Below are positions 28,299 through 51,569 of a DNA stretch of 64,000 nucleotides, piece by piece. A model generated the notes under the pieces. That model saw nothing but the letters and a program-made list of their open reading frames with translations. It ran no database searches and was not told the origin of the DNA. The position numbers and the translations under genes are program-made. This DNA is from a bacterium (GTDB taxonomy: Bacteria > Armatimonadota > Zipacnadia > Zipacnadales > UBA11051): assembly GCA_030604405.1 (NCBI GenBank), contig JAUVVY010000002.1:62001-126000 (forward strand), written 5' to 3'. The stretch's first letter is position 1; every line of letters begins with the position of its first letter.

Positions 28299-28374
28299 GT
28301 GCCGTTAGCTCAGGTGGTAGAGCATCTGACTTTTAATCAGAGGGTCGCAGGTTCGAGTCCTGCACGGCACACCA
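28299..28374 (+). tRNA. tRNA-Lys (anticodon TTT)
   Basis: 76 nt with encoded CCA. Acceptor GTGCCGT/ACGGCAC, anticodon loop CTTTTAA in the stem TCTGA/TCAGA, T-arm GCAGG-TTCGAGT-CCTGC. First of five tRNAs in one cluster. Confidence 0.97.
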
Positions 28375-28385
28375 GGTTATTGGGT

Positions 28386-28460
28386 GGTCCCATAGTCTAG
28401 GGGTTAGGACTCCGCTCTTTCAAGGCGGCGACACGGGTTCGAATCCCGTTGGGACCACCA
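28386..28460 (+). tRNA. tRNA-Glu (anticodon TTC)
   Basis: 75 nt with encoded CCA. Acceptor GGTCCCA/TGGGACC, anticodon loop CTTTCAA, T-arm CGGG-TTCGAAT-CCCG. It lies 11 bp after tRNA-Lys. Confidence 0.97.
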
Positions 28461-28468
28461 GATTTTTC

Positions 28469-28545
28469 GGGCGGGTAGCTCAGTTGGCAAGAGCGCATGC
28501 CTTACAAGCATGATGTCGCAGGTTCAAGTCCTGCTCCGCCCACCA
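28469..28545 (+). tRNA. tRNA-Val (anticodon TAC)
   Basis: 77 nt with encoded CCA. Acceptor GGGCGGG/TCCGCCC with one G-U pair, anticodon loop CTTACAA in the stem CATGC/GCATG, T-arm GCAGG-TTCAAGT-CCTGC. The 83 bp after it, before tRNA-Phe, hold nothing I recognise. Confidence 0.96.
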
Positions 28546-28628
28546 CAAAGCGCGCATTAGGTCGGCGGATGCGCCGGCGACTAACTGTCGGGCGGCCCAT
28601 CAGCCGACGGCCAGGCATCCTCTCAGGT

Positions 28629-28704
<76 letters not shown>

Positions 28705-28762
28705 GTTTCGTTCTATTGGCCCAGGCATTGCCATACGAAGTGACAGTGGCCGAGGAGCAAAA

Positions 28763-28838
28763 GCCGACGTAGCTCAGACGGCAGAGCGGGTCACTCGTAA
28801 TGACCAGGTCACCGGTTCGACTCCGGTCGTCGGCTCCA
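28763..28838 (+). tRNA. tRNA-Thr (anticodon CGT)
   Basis: 76 nt with encoded CCA. Acceptor GCCGACG/CGTCGGC, anticodon loop CTCGTAA in the stem GGTCA/TGACC, T-arm ACCGG-TTCGACT-CCGGT. Last tRNA of the cluster. Confidence 0.97.
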
Positions 28839-41064: not shown

Positions 41065-42177
41065 TTACTTGATCTCCAGCTCAGAAATCCATATATACTC
41101 GGGCTCGATGGGGTTGCCGGCCACGGCCGGCTGCCACAGACGCAGCGCCTTGGTCGTCACAGGCCCAAAAGTGTGCCTCGAAAGCTGCGTGGCCTTCTGG
41201 TCTTTCACAGCCACCTGCGTTACCCACTTCTCTCCGTCCCAGGTCTGTATATCATAGGCGACGGAGCTACGAAAGCCCCCATAATAGGCCCACCAGATCG
41301 TAACTTCGCTGACCGGTCTCGGCTCCGGGAACTCCATACGCACCCAGTGCGGCATGGCATTGCCCTCGGATAGCCACGTCTTACCCGCCGTCGTCCCTCC
41401 GCTGGCATCCATCTTCAAGCCGTCAAAGATCACCCACCACTCGGCCCACCCCGAACTGGAGGTGATGCTATCCACTGACGCCACCGTACCATCGGCTAGC
41501 GTGTGAGGCCCCTCATAGCGGTACGAAAGCGTGCACGCGAGCGCATCTTCGTCAATCGCGTAGTCGTCAATACGCACCGAAACGTTGTTCTGCCGACCGA
41601 CGGTCGCCATGAGCTGTTTGAGGTCAATGGTGATGATGCCGCGCTTTGGGTTGAGGCGCTCGAAGCTGACACCCGGATGGGAAAGCTCAAAAGACTTACC
41701 ATTAACACTTACGCGCAGGGACTTGGTCTGCAGCCAGTTGAGTTCGTCTTTCACCTCGATGACCAGTTTCTGCGGCGCTTTCTCCACTCCGCCCATGGCG
41801 ACGGAACTGACGGCACCGTAAGAGCTCCCATCAACCTCGAAGCGCACAACCTCCGGCGGCTCCTGGTCGTCCAAGTTGATGCGTTTCGACACACCTAACA
41901 CCAATATAGTGCGCCCGTTCTTGATGTCGGCAAGCTCTATGTCCATCTGCAGCAAGCCGTTCTTGATAGATCCGGGCACAACCGTCCAGGTGCCGGCGGA
42001 ATTCCGGTACATCACTTGCTTAACATTGGCCTCCACAGGGAGAGAGAGCGTCAGAGACCCCATAGTCTGCAGGCGGTAAATCTGAACCGCAGGCGCGCTG
42101 CGTGCGCCGCTGGCGGCGAGCACGGAAAGAGCCAACGAGACAGCGGCTGCAATGGCGGCAGCCTTCAGGTATTTCAC
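41065..42177 (-). CDS. secreted protein with discoidin-like C-terminal domain, paralog A
   Basis: A protein of 370 residues with a signal peptide (1-28, cut near ARS/AP). The beta-rich N-terminal part contains KNGRTILVLGVSKRINLDDQEPP. The C-terminal part (about 225-370) contains TSSSGWAEWWVIFDGLKMD, MPHWVRMEFPEPRPVSEVTIWW and DIQTWDGEKWVTQV, the pattern of F5/8 type C (discoidin) carbohydrate-binding domains. The start is GTG 42177, with AGAGGGG 7 nt upstream. It is a tandem duplicate of the gene at 42258. No catalytic domain is apparent, so it may be a surface glycan-binding protein. Confidence 0.7.
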   Translation of the reverse strand: MKYLKAAAIAAAVSLALSVLAASGARSAPAVQIYRLQTMGSLTLSLPVEANVKQVMYRNSAGTWTVVPGSIKNGLLQMDIELADIKNGRTILVLGVSKRINLDDQEPPEVVRFEVDGSSYGAVSSVAMGGVEKAPQKLVIEVKDELNWLQTKSLRVSVNGKSFELSHPGVSFERLNPKRGIITIDLKQLMATVGRQNNVSVRIDDYAIDEDALACTLSYRYEGPHTLADGTVASVDSITSSSGWAEWWVIFDGLKMDASGGTTAGKTWLSEGNAMPHWVRMEFPEPRPVSEVTIWWAYYGGFRSSVAYDIQTWDGEKWVTQVAVKDQKATQLSRHTFGPVTTKALRLWQPAVAGNPIEPEYIWISELEIK

Positions 42178-42257
42178 TTCATTTCCCCTCTTTTTCGGTG
42201 GAGTTATGCGCAGACCTGGAACCTGCGTTCTAGTTGTTCTACCGCGCAGCTAGTGCC

Positions 42258-43373
42258 TCAGAGCACTTCGATCTCCGATAGCCACATGTAGTCGGCGCGG
42301 CCGGGATGGCCCGACATCGAGGGCTGCCACACTCGCACCGCCGTAGTGGTGACCGGCTCAAAGGCGTGCTTCGAGCACTGTATTTCGCCCTGGTCCTTGA
42401 CCTGCACTTGTGTGACCCATGCCTCGCCGTCCCAGGTCTGCACCTCGTAAGCCACCGAGGTGCGGAAGCACTGGTAATGGGACCACCATAGCGCCACGCC
42501 GCTGACCTTGCGCGCCTCCGGAAACTCCAGACGAATCCAATGTGGCTGAGCGCTCTGCTCGGAAAGCCAGGTGCAGCCGGCGGTCGTGCCGGAGCTCGCG
42601 TCCATCTTGATACCGTCCACAACGACCCACCACTCTGCCCAGCCGGAACTGGAGGTTACGGTGTCCACCGCAAGTAGCGATCCGTCCGGCAGCTTGTACG
42701 GAGGAGTGTAGCGGAAAGACAGCGAGCAATTGAGCGAATCCTCGTCGAGGGCATAGTCGTCAATCCTGACAGTCACTGTGTTGTCGCTACTCATCGAGTC
42801 GAGAAGCTCCCCCACGTCCACAGATACGATGCCGTGCTTGGGCGAGATGCGCTCGAAGCTCACGCCGGCGTCGCGCAGAGTGTATCGCCTGCCGTTGACA
42901 GTCACCAGCAAAGAGCGCGTCTGCAAGCTGTTGAGGTCATCCTTGACCTCTACAGTGATGTTTCGGGGTGCCATTTCGACCCCGCCCAGCGCCACGGTCT
43001 GGACGGTCCCGTGGTCTTTGCCATCAATTTCGAAGCGCACTACCCGGGGAGGCTCCTGGTCGTCCATGTTCACACCCTCGGGCACATTGAGAATTATCAT
43101 TGTGCGACCGTTCTTAATCTTGGCCACCTCTATCCGCAGATGCAACGCGTCATCTGAAATGTCAACCGGCAGTGAGCTCCATTTGCCACTGGCATCGCGG
43201 TACAGGACCTGGGTGAGATCGGCTATCGGCGGCAGCGAAAGCTGCACGTTGCCTGTAGTCTGCAGGCGATAGGCGGCGGTCTTCGGCGCTCTGTCGGCCC
43301 AGGCGCCGCAAGTCACCAGCGCAACCGCGGCAATTAACGCAACTATCAATGAAATGGCCCGCATCGGTTTCAT
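42258..43373 (-). CDS. secreted protein with discoidin-like C-terminal domain, paralog B
   Basis: A protein of 371 residues, similar over its whole length to the product of the next gene (41065-42177). It shares KNGRTMIILNVPEGVNMDDQ, RIDDYALDEDSLNCSLSFRY, TSSSGWAEWWVVVDGIKMD and YEVQTWDGEAWVTQVQVKDQ. Signal peptide 1-27. AGAGGG precedes ATG 43373; the longer frame to 43523 has no ribosome site. The two genes are 80 bp apart on the same strand, a clear tandem duplication. This gene is divergent from the trp operon. Confidence 0.7.
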   Translation of the reverse strand: MKPMRAISLIVALIAAVALVTCGAWADRAPKTAAYRLQTTGNVQLSLPPIADLTQVLYRDASGKWSSLPVDISDDALHLRIEVAKIKNGRTMIILNVPEGVNMDDQEPPRVVRFEIDGKDHGTVQTVALGGVEMAPRNITVEVKDDLNSLQTRSLLVTVNGRRYTLRDAGVSFERISPKHGIVSVDVGELLDSMSSDNTVTVRIDDYALDEDSLNCSLSFRYTPPYKLPDGSLLAVDTVTSSSGWAEWWVVVDGIKMDASSGTTAGCTWLSEQSAQPHWIRLEFPEARKVSGVALWWSHYQCFRTSVAYEVQTWDGEAWVTQVQVKDQGEIQCSKHAFEPVTTTAVRVWQPSMSGHPGRADYMWLSEIEVL

Positions 43374-43508
43374 TCGGAGCACCCTCTCAAGTGTCGAGTC
43401 TCGTTTGCTGTGGTGAATTTGCTCATAGCGCCGGGCATTTCCTCCCTTGACAGAAAACTTTTTTTCACAAAGCGTTATTGCACAATTGCATGCGACTGAG
43501 AAAAAAGG

Positions 43509-43537
43509 TTTGACAGATTGCACCGTACGTGGTACGC
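43509..43537 (+). promoter_or_regulatory. candidate trp operon promoter
   Basis: A perfect TTGACA at 43509-43514 with a 17-bp spacer to TACGCT (43532-43537), a poor -10 with three of six matches. Transcription would start about 14 bp before the leader peptide. The palindrome CGTAC-GTG-GTACG (43524-43536) spans the spacer and -10 and could be a repressor site; TrpR-type binding is speculative. Confidence 0.5.
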
Positions 43538-43557
43538 TCCGCGATCAAGTGATAGAA

Positions 43558-43620
43558 ATGTACAGTACTCGTGCTACCAACTACATCAACAGAGACTGCT
43601 CGAGCTGGTGCTGGCCATAG
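43558..43620 (+). CDS. trpL: trp leader peptide (20 aa, ends CSSWCWP)
   Basis: A 20-codon ORF: ATG 43558, stop TAG 43618-43620. It has Trp codons at 17 and 19 (43606-43608 and 43612-43614), separated by Cys, the arrangement expected of an attenuation leader peptide. It lies 238 bp before trpE and directly before two terminator hairpins. The ribosome site is weak (AAGTGA about 8 nt upstream). Two Trp codons in 20 is far above background, and the position makes chance unlikely. Confidence 0.8.
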   Translation: MYSTRATNYINRDCSSWCWP

Positions 43621-43673
43621 GCGAGCCGGCGCCAGCGTGCCTGGATTAAGCTAGAGGCCGTGAGCCGGTTCGC
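43621..43673 (+). promoter_or_regulatory. antiterminator pairing before trp terminator 1
   Basis: GCGAGCCGGC (43621-43630) can pair with GCCGGTTCGC (43664-43673), 10 bp including one G-U. It starts one base after the leader stop codon. It overlaps the ascending arm of terminator 1 by 2 nt and takes up its loop, so the two structures conflict. A ribosome at the stop codon would cover 43621-43630; one stalled at Trp17 would mostly leave it free. A competing early hairpin is GCTGGC (43610-43615) with GCCAGC (43631-43636). Confidence 0.6.
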
Positions 43674-43694
43674 CGCGAAGCTCGCGGCCTTTTT
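43656..43694 (+). terminator. trp leader terminator 1 (attenuator)
   Basis: GGCCGTGAGC (43656-43665) pairs with GCTCGCGGCC (43680-43689), 10 bp with one G-U, followed by TTTTT. It lies 36 nt after the leader peptide stop codon. Confidence 0.85.
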
Positions 43695-43749
43695 GTTTGT
43701 CTTGCCTGGTATGTAGTCAGATCCGACGTTGTTCTCGAAGGCCGTGGGC
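43680..43749 (+). promoter_or_regulatory. alternative pairing linking the two trp terminators
   Basis: The descending arm of terminator 1 (GCTCGCGGCC, 43680-43689) can also pair with the ascending arm of terminator 2 (GGCCGTGGGC, 43740-43749): 10 bp with two G-U pairs. When terminator 1 is not formed this pairing would block terminator 2. Confidence 0.5.
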
Positions 43750-43776
43750 GGATAGTAGCCGCTCGCGGCCTTTTTT
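43738..43776 (+). terminator. trp leader terminator 2 (attenuator)
   Basis: AAGGCCGTGGGCGG (43738-43751) pairs with CCGCTCGCGGCCTT (43759-43772), 14 bp with two G-U pairs, followed by further T to 43776. It is homologous to terminator 1 (both carry an AGGCCGTG ascending arm and a GCTCGCGGCCTTTTT descending arm), suggesting local duplication. It lies 82 bp before trpE. Confidence 0.87.
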
Positions 43777-43857: not shown

Positions 43858-45357
43858 ATGTACACGCCAACGCTTCAGGAGTTTATAGAGAAGGCGCAAC
43901 ACGGCAACCTCATTCCGGTCTATCGCGAATTGGTAGCCGATATTGACACACCGGTGTCAGCCTATCTCAAACTCAGCGAGATAGGCAATGGCTACAGTTT
44001 CTTGCTGGAGAGTGTCGAGGGTAGCGAGAATGTGGCGCGCTATTCGTACCTGGGCTGTGCGCCATACCAGTCGCTGGCCTCACGCGGCACGGAGGTGACC
44101 GTTACCGCCGGGGCCGCGCAGCACAAGCGCACACTCAAGCAGGGACAGGACGCGCTCCACGTTGTCAAGGAGCTGATGTCGCAGTACGACTTCGTGCCCC
44201 CTGACACGCCTGACCGCTTCTATGGCGGCGCGGTAGGCTATCTCAGCTACGACATGGTCCGATTCTTCGAGGACCTGCCCGACGAGAACCCCGACGACCT
44301 TCAGCTTCCCGATTGCGAATTGATGTTCACCGATACATTGGTCATCTTCGATCACGTAATGCACCGGCTGCGCATCGTCGCCAACGCTCACGTGACCGAC
44401 GATCCGCAAGCGGCTTACTGGGAGGCGACCGAGCGGATCGATCGGCTTGTGGAGGCCTTGCAGGGCCCGCTGCCCGAGCAGCCGCGGCGACCGCTGACGC
44501 CCCGAATCCCCGATGACCCGACGGCGATGAAGTCAACGATGACCAAGAGCCGGCACCGCGATGCCGTCCTGCAGGCCAAGGAGTATATCGCCGCCGGTGA
44601 CGTGATCCAGGTGGTGATATCGCATCGGCTTTCTGCAGAGTTGCAGGTGCCACCGTTTGATCTGTACCGCGCTCTGCGTGTCATCAACCCCTCGCCCTAC
44701 ATGTACTATCTCAGCTTCGGCGAGACGAAAATAATCGGCGCTTCGCCGGAGCTGCTTGTGCGCGAGGAGGACGGAAAAGTGGTGACCCGGCCTATTGCCG
44801 GCACTCGGCGACGCGGAAAAGACGCCGCCGAGGACAAGTACCTGGCTGAGGACCTGCTTGCCGACGAAAAGGAGCGCGCCGAGCACATCATGCTGGTTGA
44901 CCTCCACCGCAACGACATCGGCCGTGTCTGTAAGCCCGGGACCGTGGAGGTGGACCTGCTCATGAAGGTCGAGCACTACAGCCATGTCATGCACATCGTT
45001 ACCAACGTGATTGGCGAGCTGGCCGACGGATATGACCAGTACGACCTGCTGCGGGCGGTATTCCCTGCCGGCACTGTCAGCGGGGCCCCCAAGATCCGCG
45101 CCATGGAGATTATCGAGGAACTGGAGCCGGTGCGACGCGGTCCGTATGCCGGAGTTATCGGCTACTTTAGCTTCTCCGGCACCATGGACACCTGCATCAC
45201 CCTGCGGACCATCATCGGCAAGAACGGCACCTACTATTTCCAGGCCGGCGGCGGCATTGTTGCCGATTCCGTGCCGGAGAACGAGTACGAGGAAACGTTG
45301 CTGAAGATAGGCGCTTTACTTGATTCGGCGCGGTTGGCCGAGAGGGGGTTCGTCTGA
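43858..45357 (+). CDS. trpE: anthranilate synthase component I
   Basis: Converts chorismate and ammonia (from TrpG) to anthranilate. The protein has 499 residues. The N-terminal Trp-binding region includes GYSFLLESVEGSENVARYS; LLES is the feedback-inhibition motif. The C-terminal chorismate-binding domain has GDVIQVVISHRLS, ASPELLVREEDGKVVTRPIAGT, LADEKERAEHIMLVDLHRND and GAPKIRAMEIIEELEP. AAAGGAG precedes ATG 43858. It is the first gene of trpEGDCBA, controlled by the leader at 43558-43776. Presence of LLES implies inhibition by tryptophan as well. Confidence 0.97.
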   Translation: MYTPTLQEFIEKAQHGNLIPVYRELVADIDTPVSAYLKLSEIGNGYSFLLESVEGSENVARYSYLGCAPYQSLASRGTEVTVTAGAAQHKRTLKQGQDALHVVKELMSQYDFVPPDTPDRFYGGAVGYLSYDMVRFFEDLPDENPDDLQLPDCELMFTDTLVIFDHVMHRLRIVANAHVTDDPQAAYWEATERIDRLVEALQGPLPEQPRRPLTPRIPDDPTAMKSTMTKSRHRDAVLQAKEYIAAGDVIQVVISHRLSAELQVPPFDLYRALRVINPSPYMYYLSFGETKIIGASPELLVREEDGKVVTRPIAGTRRRGKDAAEDKYLAEDLLADEKERAEHIMLVDLHRNDIGRVCKPGTVEVDLLMKVEHYSHVMHIVTNVIGELADGYDQYDLLRAVFPAGTVSGAPKIRAMEIIEELEPVRRGPYAGVIGYFSFSGTMDTCITLRTIIGKNGTYYFQAGGGIVADSVPENEYEETLLKIGALLDSARLAERGFV

Positions 45358-47054: not shown

Positions 47055-47861
47055 ATGTCAATACTCACCGAGATTGTGCGCAGCAAGCAGCGCCACTTGA
47101 ACGGGCTCATAACTGCGGCCTCGTCGGCCTATATGCGCGATGCGGCTGACTCGGCGCCGGCGCCACGAGATTTCATCGCCGCACTGCAGGCCGATACGGT
47201 GCAGGTCATCGCTGAGATAAAGCGGGCTAGCCCGTCGCAAGGTGCTATCAATGCGAAACTGGATGTGTCTGCGCTGGCAGCGGAGTATCAGCGAAATGGC
47301 GCAGCGGCTATCAGCGTGCTTACTGACGAGAACTATTTTGGCGGGAGCATCGAGGACCTCAGACAGGCGCGAGACGCGGTGAATCTGCCTCTATTGCGGA
47401 AGGATTTCATAATCTCTGAGTATCAGATCTACGAAGCACGTGCGGCTGGTGCTGACGCGGCTCTGCTGATAGTGGCGGCTCTTGATCCGGCGACGCTGGC
47501 GGCGATGCTGGGCCTCACGCACCAGCTGGGCATGGCCGCACTGGTCGAGGCGCACACGCATCAGGAGTTAGATATCGCACTGGCCGGCGGCGCCAGGCTG
47601 GTCGGCATCAACAACCGCGACTTGAATACTCTCCAGGTGTCGCTGGATACGTTCGCGGACCTGGCGCAGCGGGTGCCGCCGGAATGCACGCTGGTCAGCG
47701 AAAGCGGAATACACAGCCGGGCTGATGTCGAGTATGTGGCGCAGAGCGGGGCAGAGGCGGTGCTGGTCGGCACGAGTCTGGTCGCTGCCAGATCACCTGG
47801 CGATGCTTTGAAAGAGCTATTGGGAGTCCCGATAAGTCCACGACGGACGGGGCGAGCTTGA
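47055..47861 (+). CDS. trpC: indole-3-glycerol-phosphate synthase
   Basis: TIM-barrel enzyme forming indole-3-glycerol phosphate. The protein has 268 residues with VQVIAEIKRASPSQGAI (catalytic Lys and phosphate site), AAAISVLTDENYFGG, LLRKDFIISEYQIYEARAAG, LVEAHTHQELDIAL, GINNRDLNTLQV and LVSESGIHSRAD. It is monofunctional; no TrpF domain is fused. ATG 47055 directly follows the trpD stop. A 120-bp gap with a possible internal promoter separates it from trpB. Confidence 0.97.
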   Translation: MSILTEIVRSKQRHLNGLITAASSAYMRDAADSAPAPRDFIAALQADTVQVIAEIKRASPSQGAINAKLDVSALAAEYQRNGAAAISVLTDENYFGGSIEDLRQARDAVNLPLLRKDFIISEYQIYEARAAGADAALLIVAALDPATLAAMLGLTHQLGMAALVEAHTHQELDIALAGGARLVGINNRDLNTLQVSLDTFADLAQRVPPECTLVSESGIHSRADVEYVAQSGAEAVLVGTSLVAARSPGDALKELLGVPISPRRTGRA

Positions 47862-47892
47862 GCGAACAGCCCGGCTGGCGCCTGGCCCAGCC

Positions 47893-47922
47893 TTGAAAGA
47901 CACGGCCCTTAGGCAGTATAGT
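47893..47922 (+). promoter_or_regulatory. possible internal promoter before trpB
   Basis: TTGAAA (47893-47898), 18-bp spacer, TATAGT (47917-47922), in the 120-bp gap between trpC and trpB, about 60 bp before the trpB start. It would give trpBA expression independent of the attenuated leader. Confidence 0.5.
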
Positions 47923-47981
47923 GATTGCTCATCCCTTCTAAGTTGATCGGGTTGCTGTCGCTATCATGGAGGTGCACTCTA

Positions 47982-50219: not shown

Positions 50220-50321
50220 ATACCCCAGCCTTTTGCATTCCCTGACAGCATTTCCACTTAACTGCACAGTTGAGCATAGCCCGACATTCTCGCCTATTGG
50301 CGCAACGGGGTGATATTTGAC

Positions 50322-51569
50322 ATGCCTAAGATTGAGTTCATTGACGTGACAAATCGTGATGGAGAGCAGACGGCCCGCATATCGCTCTCCAAACTTCAGA
50401 AAACGGTCATCAACTGGCTGCTGGACCAGATGGGCGTCTATCAGAGCGAAATGGGCTTCCCCCTGACCGCACACGAAGCCAACTACATCAACGCCAACGT
50501 AGCTCTCACCAAGCAGAACTGCGGTGAGAACGGTCCCCTCATCAAGCGGATCCAGCTTTCCGGCTGGTCGCGCGCTTTGGCCTCAGACGTAAAGATCGCC
50601 CAGGAACGCACGGATGTGGAGCATTTCAACCTCTCCATCTCCACCTCCGAGCAGATGCTGGAGTGGAAGTTCCAGGGCAAGTTCACCAATGAGGACATTA
50701 TCCGCATGATGGTTGACTCAGTGATAGCGGCGAAAGAGGGCGGGGCAGTTACCGCTGGTGTCAACGCCGAGGACGCCTCTCGCACGGATTTGGGCTTCCT
50801 CATCGAGTTCGCACAGGCAGGCAAGGAGGCGGGCGCGAACCGCTTCCGCTACTGCGATACTTTGGGCTATGACGACCCGGAGTCCACAGCCGAACGCATC
50901 AGCATTCTCGCCAAAGAGGTACAAATGCCTATCGAGATGCACTGCCACAACGATCTCGGCCTGGCTGTGGCGAATTCGTGCGCGGGTGCGGTCGCCTGTT
51001 GTGAGGCCGGTCAGGATGCCTATATCAACACCACGGTCAATGGTCTAGGGGAGAGGGCCGGCAACGCTGACTTGGTCTCATGTGTTCTGGCGCTGGAGTA
51101 CTCTGCCAAGTGGGGCAGGGAGAACTGGGTCACCGACGCAATTGATCTGAGCCAGGCCTGGAAGCTCGCCTATTACGTATCCAACGCATTCGGCGTGCCC
51201 ATCCCCATAAACCAGCCCGGCGTTGGTGACAACGCTTTCGCTCATGAAAGTGGCATCCACGCCGACGGCGCTTTGAAGGACCGCCATAACTACGAGCTGT
51301 ACGACTTCGAGGCACTTGGCCGCGGTGAGATCATCCACACCCAGACCGGCCGCGTTATTACTGCCGGAGCGCACAGCGGAGCCTCGGGGCTGGAGTATGT
51401 CTATAACCAGCTCGATTTGGGCTTCCGTGACGAGGAACACAAGCGCGAGATTCTCAAGCTCGCGCAGGTGGCCAACCTCCACAACCAGGCACCGTTGACT
51501 GAAGAGGAGCTGTGGTTCATTTACCATTGCCCGGAGATCGCCGCCCGACTGATAACGGTCACGGTGTAA
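50322..51569 (+). CDS. homocitrate/isopropylmalate synthase-family (HMGL-like) enzyme
   Basis: TIM-barrel acyl-CoA condensing enzyme of 415 residues. The start PKIEFIDVTNRDGEQTA holds the catalytic Arg-Asp of the family. RFRYCDTLGYDDPE, EMHCHNDLGLAVAN (metal His pair), NTTVNGLGERAGNADL and HESGIHADGALKD are conserved. It lacks the LeuA C-terminal regulatory domain, so homocitrate synthase, citramalate-type or a related synthase are all possible. GGGGTGAT precedes ATG 50322; GTG 50310 is an alternative. Single gene with its own promoter and a long leader. Confidence 0.85.
   Translation: MPKIEFIDVTNRDGEQTARISLSKLQKTVINWLLDQMGVYQSEMGFPLTAHEANYINANVALTKQNCGENGPLIKRIQLSGWSRALASDVKIAQERTDVEHFNLSISTSEQMLEWKFQGKFTNEDIIRMMVDSVIAAKEGGAVTAGVNAEDASRTDLGFLIEFAQAGKEAGANRFRYCDTLGYDDPESTAERISILAKEVQMPIEMHCHNDLGLAVANSCAGAVACCEAGQDAYINTTVNGLGERAGNADLVSCVLALEYSAKWGRENWVTDAIDLSQAWKLAYYVSNAFGVPIPINQPGVGDNAFAHESGIHADGALKDRHNYELYDFEALGRGEIIHTQTGRVITAGAHSGASGLEYVYNQLDLGFRDEEHKREILKLAQVANLHNQAPLTEEELWFIYHCPEIAARLITVTV

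Follow-up and report, generated by a model that had tools for sequence, protein, structure and literature searches.

The leader of the E. coli trp operon, trpL, carries one terminator. One attenuator per biosynthetic leader is treated as normal (PMC3641672). The Salmonella mgtCBR leader contains tandem attenuators with two leader ORFs, which answer two signals and act independently (PMC3641672), and the double attenuator of mefA/msrD has been called a double lock that guards against leakage (PMC10314930). For erm(K) of Bacillus licheniformis, a passage in PMC4335068 (citing Kwak et al. 1991) mentions two adjacent Rho-independent terminators behind a single leader peptide. The literature we searched, in which subscription journals were thinly covered, yielded no account of an amino acid operon governed by a shared-strand relay and none of attenuation in Armatimonadetes; these absences are weak evidence. 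Here we describe a trp leader from an Armatimonadota genome, located in a stretch of 64,000 nucleotides of contig JAUVVY010000002.1 that was analysed as a whole (hereafter the window). We consider it reasonably probable that this leader is a ribosome-mediated trp attenuator in which one sensor governs two output hairpins coupled in series.

The source assembly of the analysed genome comprises 4.37 Mb, and its nearest named relatives are MAGs that carry the labels Candidatus Zipacnadia and Armatimonadetes; TrpE at locus L041 is 95% identical over the portion of TrpE present there. Directly 3' of the leader, NCBIfam models identify an operon in the order trpE-trpG-trpD-trpC-trpB-trpA (Table 1). 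No trpF lies between trpC and trpB (47861-47925), so that the operon as read is trpEGDCBA and phosphoribosylanthranilate isomerase activity must come from a gene located elsewhere or from a different enzyme. A promoter-like element precedes the leader; it was missed by a strict consensus promoter scan, and its TTGACA hexamer is aligned and kept in four genomes of the genus and found upstream in the fifth (G004). Two adjacent paralogous proteins without an NCBIfam match are encoded on the minus strand at 41065-43523, upstream of the trp operon and divergent from it, and related DNA also occurs upstream of trpE in L003. As the gene upstream is transcribed divergently from the minus strand, we dropped the idea that either hairpin marks its end. 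On the same strand as the operon and after it lies a gene of the homocitrate/isopropylmalate synthase family (50310-51569; best NCBIfam match TIGR02660, below its cut-off), and five tRNA genes are clustered at 28299-28835.

Table 1 Features of the trp leader and operon, in positions of the window
Feature	Position	Strand	Basis
Promoter-like element: TTGACA (43510-43515), 17 nt, TACGCT (43533-43538)	43510-43538	+	read from sequence
Leader peptide ORF MYSTRATNYINRDCSSWCWP, 20 codons	43558-43620	+	sequence reading
Trp codons of the leader ORF	43606-43608, 43612-43614
Stop codon TAG of the leader ORF	43618-43620
Segment 1, within leader ORF; helix 1:2 with 43625-43636	43604-43615	+	helix mapping
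Segment 2, antiterminator strand; helix 2:3 is 43620-43630/43664-43674	43620-43636	+	helix mapping
Segment 3, T1 ascending arm, also used in helix 2:3	43656-43674	+	helix mapping
Segment 4, T1 descending arm, shared strand able to pair with segment 5; helix 4:5 is 43680-43689/43740-43749, 2 of 10 pairs G-U	43680-43689	+	
Terminator 1 (T1), stem 43656-43665/43680-43689, U5 at 43690-43694	43656-43694	+	terminator call, helix mapping
Segment 5, T2 ascending arm; AGGCCGUGGGCGG starts at 43739	43740-43751	+	
Segment 6, T2 descending arm	43759-43770	+	helix mapping
Terminator 2 (T2), stem 43740-43751/43759-43770, U6 at 43771-43776	43738-43776	+	terminator call, helix mapping
trpE (first operon gene)	43858-45357	+	NCBIfam TIGR00564, 581.8 bits, above its cut-off
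trpG, trpD, trpC, trpB, trpA (gene starts)	45392, 46028, 46989, 47925, 49120	+	NCBIfam

The leader displays the hallmarks of classical trp attenuation: a leader ORF rich in Trp codons (2 of its 20), mutually exclusive helices 2:3 and 3:4, a 1:2 hairpin that overlaps the ORF, and trp genes directly downstream. It departs from the textbook single-terminator form, which is usual but not a strict requirement, in having two terminators, which have a GGCCGUG..GCGGCC core in common. Its six segments form a chain in which each is complementary to its neighbour (1:2, 12 bp; 2:3, 11; 3:4 or T1, 10; 4:5, 10; 5:6 or T2, 12), and segments 3 and 6 are likewise fully complementary. The predicted fold of the leader is better than that of 99 of 100 dinucleotide shuffles (z -3.4). 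The sequence-only reading had proposed one Trp leader ORF, two similar intrinsic terminators and chained pairings, all borne out by the sequence and the helix coordinates; its 10-bp helix 4:5 was exact, its helix 2:3 is present and one pair longer than the 43621-43630/43664-43673 it gave, and helix 1:2, which it lacked, completes the chain. Terminators of this genome do not commonly use the 5' arm of T2, AGGCCGUGGGCGG. The one further exact copy (G000:C44) is not part of a terminator and apparently lies inside a coding region, and no other terminator carrying the arm was found among the genome copies examined.

Up to T1 the layout is that of E. coli trpL, with a short leader ORF, Trp codons near its end, alternative helices 1:2, 2:3 and 3:4 and an intrinsic terminator before trpE, and we propose the same logic for the starved, fed and untranslated states. 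Unlike trpL, the window leader adds T2, whose opening would depend on the strand freed from T1. The arrangement had been thought non-standard from the sequence. That may hold for the shared-strand relay, which we did not find for an amino acid operon in the literature searched, whereas two terminators after one leader peptide are not new, given what PMC4335068 mentions of erm(K). As far as that mention goes, the resemblance is one of layout, not descent; erm(K) senses macrolide stalling and serves a resistance gene, whereas the window leader belongs to a biosynthetic operon and an amino acid, and its gene context and its Trp codons both speak against induction by macrolide stalling. The mgtCBR leader also has two attenuators in one RNA; the window leader differs in the one ORF noted and, probably, one signal. 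In mefA/msrD, unlike here, a separate leader peptide (msrDL) serves the second attenuator, whose control extends to msrD alone.

These pairings suggest the following mechanism. With tryptophan available, the ribosome would reach the stop codon and cover segment 2, and T1 would form and terminate transcription; should polymerase pass T1, segment 4 would stay locked in T1, and T2 would form and terminate too. With tryptophan short, the ribosome would halt at the first of the Trp codons, 2:3 would form instead of T1, and the freed segment 4 would capture segment 5 once made, by which T2 would be delayed or prevented. Without any translation, 1:2 would form and both terminators would close. The two linked stop signals probably open and close like a row of dominoes, and we infer termination at both sites and its response to tryptophan.

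To follow the alternative pairings, we folded the nascent RNA 3' of the ribosome at successive transcript lengths, placing the leading edge 12 nt downstream of the A-site codon's first base. With the ribosome stalled at the first Trp codon of the window leader, the probability of T1 is 0.29 at the T1 end (0.1 with the edge two bases further), and after synthesis of segment 5 both 2:3 and 4:5 stand at 0.9-1.0, with P(4:5) at 0.99. At the stop codon P(T1) is 0.93-1.0 and P(4:5) 0.00, in agreement with the earlier expectation that a ribosome masking segment 2 would close both terminators; without a ribosome, the RNA adopts 1:2 and T1. Helix 4:5 is lost when segment 2 is blocked, and T1 returns when segment 5 is blocked, so that 2:3 and 4:5 support each other. 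A stall at the second Trp codon resembles the stop codon and leaves T1 unopened, which makes the first Trp codon the informative one and confines to it the earlier claim that a Trp stall could open both hairpins. Until segment 5 is made, the nascent RNA is thus a thermodynamic switch. In the full-length equilibrium, by contrast, T2 forms in every state; the claimed opening of T2, and with it control of T2, would need 4:5 to persist while segment 6 emerges, over about 25 nt of transcription (kinetic trapping). The E. coli trp leader fails the equilibrium test as well (terminator probability about 0.95 in all states under the same model), and therefore the failure is not specific to the window leader and equilibrium is a poor judge.

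The same calculation was applied to a hand-curated set of two-hairpin leaders. P(4:5) at the best Trp stall exceeded that at the stop codon by at least 0.5 in 19 of 28 leaders (68%), compared with 45% for a segment 5 borrowed from a different family and 18% for a shuffled one. With two further positives from Desulfobacterota (L073 and L098) the tally becomes 21 of 30, and the other 9 have no equilibrium switch. The high cross-family rate arises because the arms have a CCGNGG-like core in common, and the swap may accordingly be read as supportive, not decisive. Within the genus of the window, the equilibrium model predicts that 4:5 persists at the stop position in G002 and G004. By arm energies, 4:5 is stronger than 3:6 in 20 of 29 leaders (Wilcoxon p = 0.008 per genome, the genomes being related, and 0.10 per family); family f5 and G051 depart from this pattern, 3:6 there equalling or bettering 4:5.

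Conservation was examined in five genomes of the genus (the window genome, G001, G002, G003 and G004; the G001 leader is identical to that of L041). The sequence-only reading would have fallen had relatives lost the leader peptide or helix 4:5; both are conserved in all five. Each genome has, in the same place, a W-rich leader peptide with two or more W in a span of a few residues, and each has both hairpins, a constancy that makes a chance origin of the layout unlikely. In G004 (L005 1644-1893, minus strand), the TAG that ends the leader ORF in the other genus members reads CAG, which extends the peptide (MKRRSMRLTQISSLTGWCWPQAGRLLYT) and brings its stop close to T1; this is either a sequence error or a shifted release point. 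Helix 1:2 retains 9-11 of its 12 pairs in the relatives, all 12 being present in the window, and across the five genomes paired cells number 54/55 for 2:3, 46/50 for T1, 49/50 for 4:5 (the missing cell is a gap, hence 49/49 scorable) and 56/60 for T2. None of the five genomes departs from AGGCCGUGGGCGG where T2 starts, though the linker around it has diverged.

These counts bear on the view that the leader peptide controls T1 in the classical manner while T2 is an uncoupled back-up that lowers leakage, the complementarity of segments 4 and 5 being a by-product of homologous or similarly composed terminators. The common core, the complete 3:6 complementarity in the window, the strength of the 3:6 control in f5 and the constant preference for T2 at equilibrium in the window all fit such a back-up. 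Against it, the 3:6 pairing, which has no role in our model, is kept in 41/50 cells vs. 49/49 for 4:5. If the terminators were merely homologous and unconnected, equal decay would be expected. Helix 4:5 also survives drift in either outer arm: in G003 and G004 the 5' arm of T1 is mutated against segment 4, which is still fully complementary to segment 5, and segment 6 varies, with one mismatch to segment 5 in four of the five genomes, where segment 5 retains a G that is mismatched in T2 but paired in 4:5. Moreover, a T2 blind to tryptophan would limit expression at times when the operon is required. We therefore regard an uncoupled back-up as unlikely. The covariance that the sequence-only reading had looked for in relatives did not appear within the genus: 4:5 is conserved and no compensatory substitution was found in the five-genome alignment, its variation amounting to one G-U/A-U alternation. 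A helix that hardly varies offers no proof of pairing by covariation within the genus, and its invariance could have another cause.

Beyond the genus we surveyed regions upstream of trpE. Two-hairpin trp leaders occur in eight family-level lineages of Armatimonadota, namely f1 (which holds the window genus), f3, f5, f11, f16, f26, f40 and f41, some calls of the automatic survey being based on short W-containing ORFs and possibly wrong. They are also found in three Desulfobacterota MAGs (L073 1197-1600, L074 1308-1560 and L098 242-520), whose leader peptides contain WSWWW, WWWW and WYWWW, respectively, followed by two terminators of GCCGUGG type 12-24 nt apart and the same predicted switch. Single-terminator trp leaders are present in many other lineages, among them L142 (f4), L130 and L131 (f6), L024 and the sister genera G005 and G006. 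In the sister genera (L118 803-960 and L117 210-400, respectively) a Trp leader peptide and one terminator lie upstream of trpS, followed by trpE, and in the window genus the leader stands directly before trpE. The linker between T1 and T2 measures roughly 50 nt in the window and 8 to 76 nt across families, and its sequence is poorly conserved in the genus alignment. This variability speaks against the linker as the site at which another signal or factor (polymerase pausing, NusA/NusG, Rho or an RNA-binding protein) controls T2 separately from a T1 under the leader peptide. The mgtCBR leader, in which tandem attenuators answer different signals (PMC3641672), provides a precedent for such separate control. 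No second Trp-rich ORF was noted between T1 and T2 in the window, and Rfam, at gathering and permissive thresholds (E up to 5), returned no relevant element and no T-box match, which further leads us to judge separate control very improbable.

Six leaders retain hairpin 1 and lack a U-run after it. Five are from f5 (G015, G019, G022, G025 and G035; loci L128, L125, L126, L123 and L124) and one from f11 (G060; L155). Judged by its sequence, hairpin 1 is hardly a standard intrinsic terminator in these leaders, and its descending arm has kept its pairing with segment 5; the switch is predicted in five of the six, G022 being the exception. The leader peptide would then be tied to the remaining terminator only by the relay or by direct contact between segments 2 and 5. 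A pure relay explains directly why a hairpin without a U-run is kept, whereas an uncoupled back-up leaves it unexplained, and the relay first proposed from the window is further favoured by these leaders, which it predicts. The same six could be taken to mean that hairpin 1 is mainly a pause or RNA-stability element and T2 the sole terminator. Most leaders, including that of the window with its U5, have a good U-tract after a hairpin 1 that is called as an intrinsic terminator, and we hold a mere pause or stability role to be most unlikely.

A more far-reaching form of the relay, which we put forward only tentatively, has two checkpoints at which the same stalled ribosome is tested twice. Should the ribosome resume between T1 and T2, segment 2 would be masked and T1 would re-form, withdrawing segment 4 and allowing T2 to terminate. 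This tentative proposal also places the relay in at least eight family-level lineages of Armatimonadota and in Desulfobacterota, possibly by convergence, with hairpin 1 reduced in some lineages to a relay element that does not terminate.

The recurrence of the two-hairpin leader across the phylum and in Desulfobacterota looks like that of a real variant of the textbook switch. We regard it as a conserved new variant of ribosome-mediated attenuation, for which the relay is the likeliest, as yet unproven, mechanism. If true, a relay with one sensor and two outputs would be an example of RNA alone multiplying leakage down and re-checking a decision, and ribosome-mediated attenuation would extend to a little-studied phylum. 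It also makes testable the question whether a stalled ribosome can signal to a site more than 100 nt away by the hand-over of a strand between consecutive terminators.
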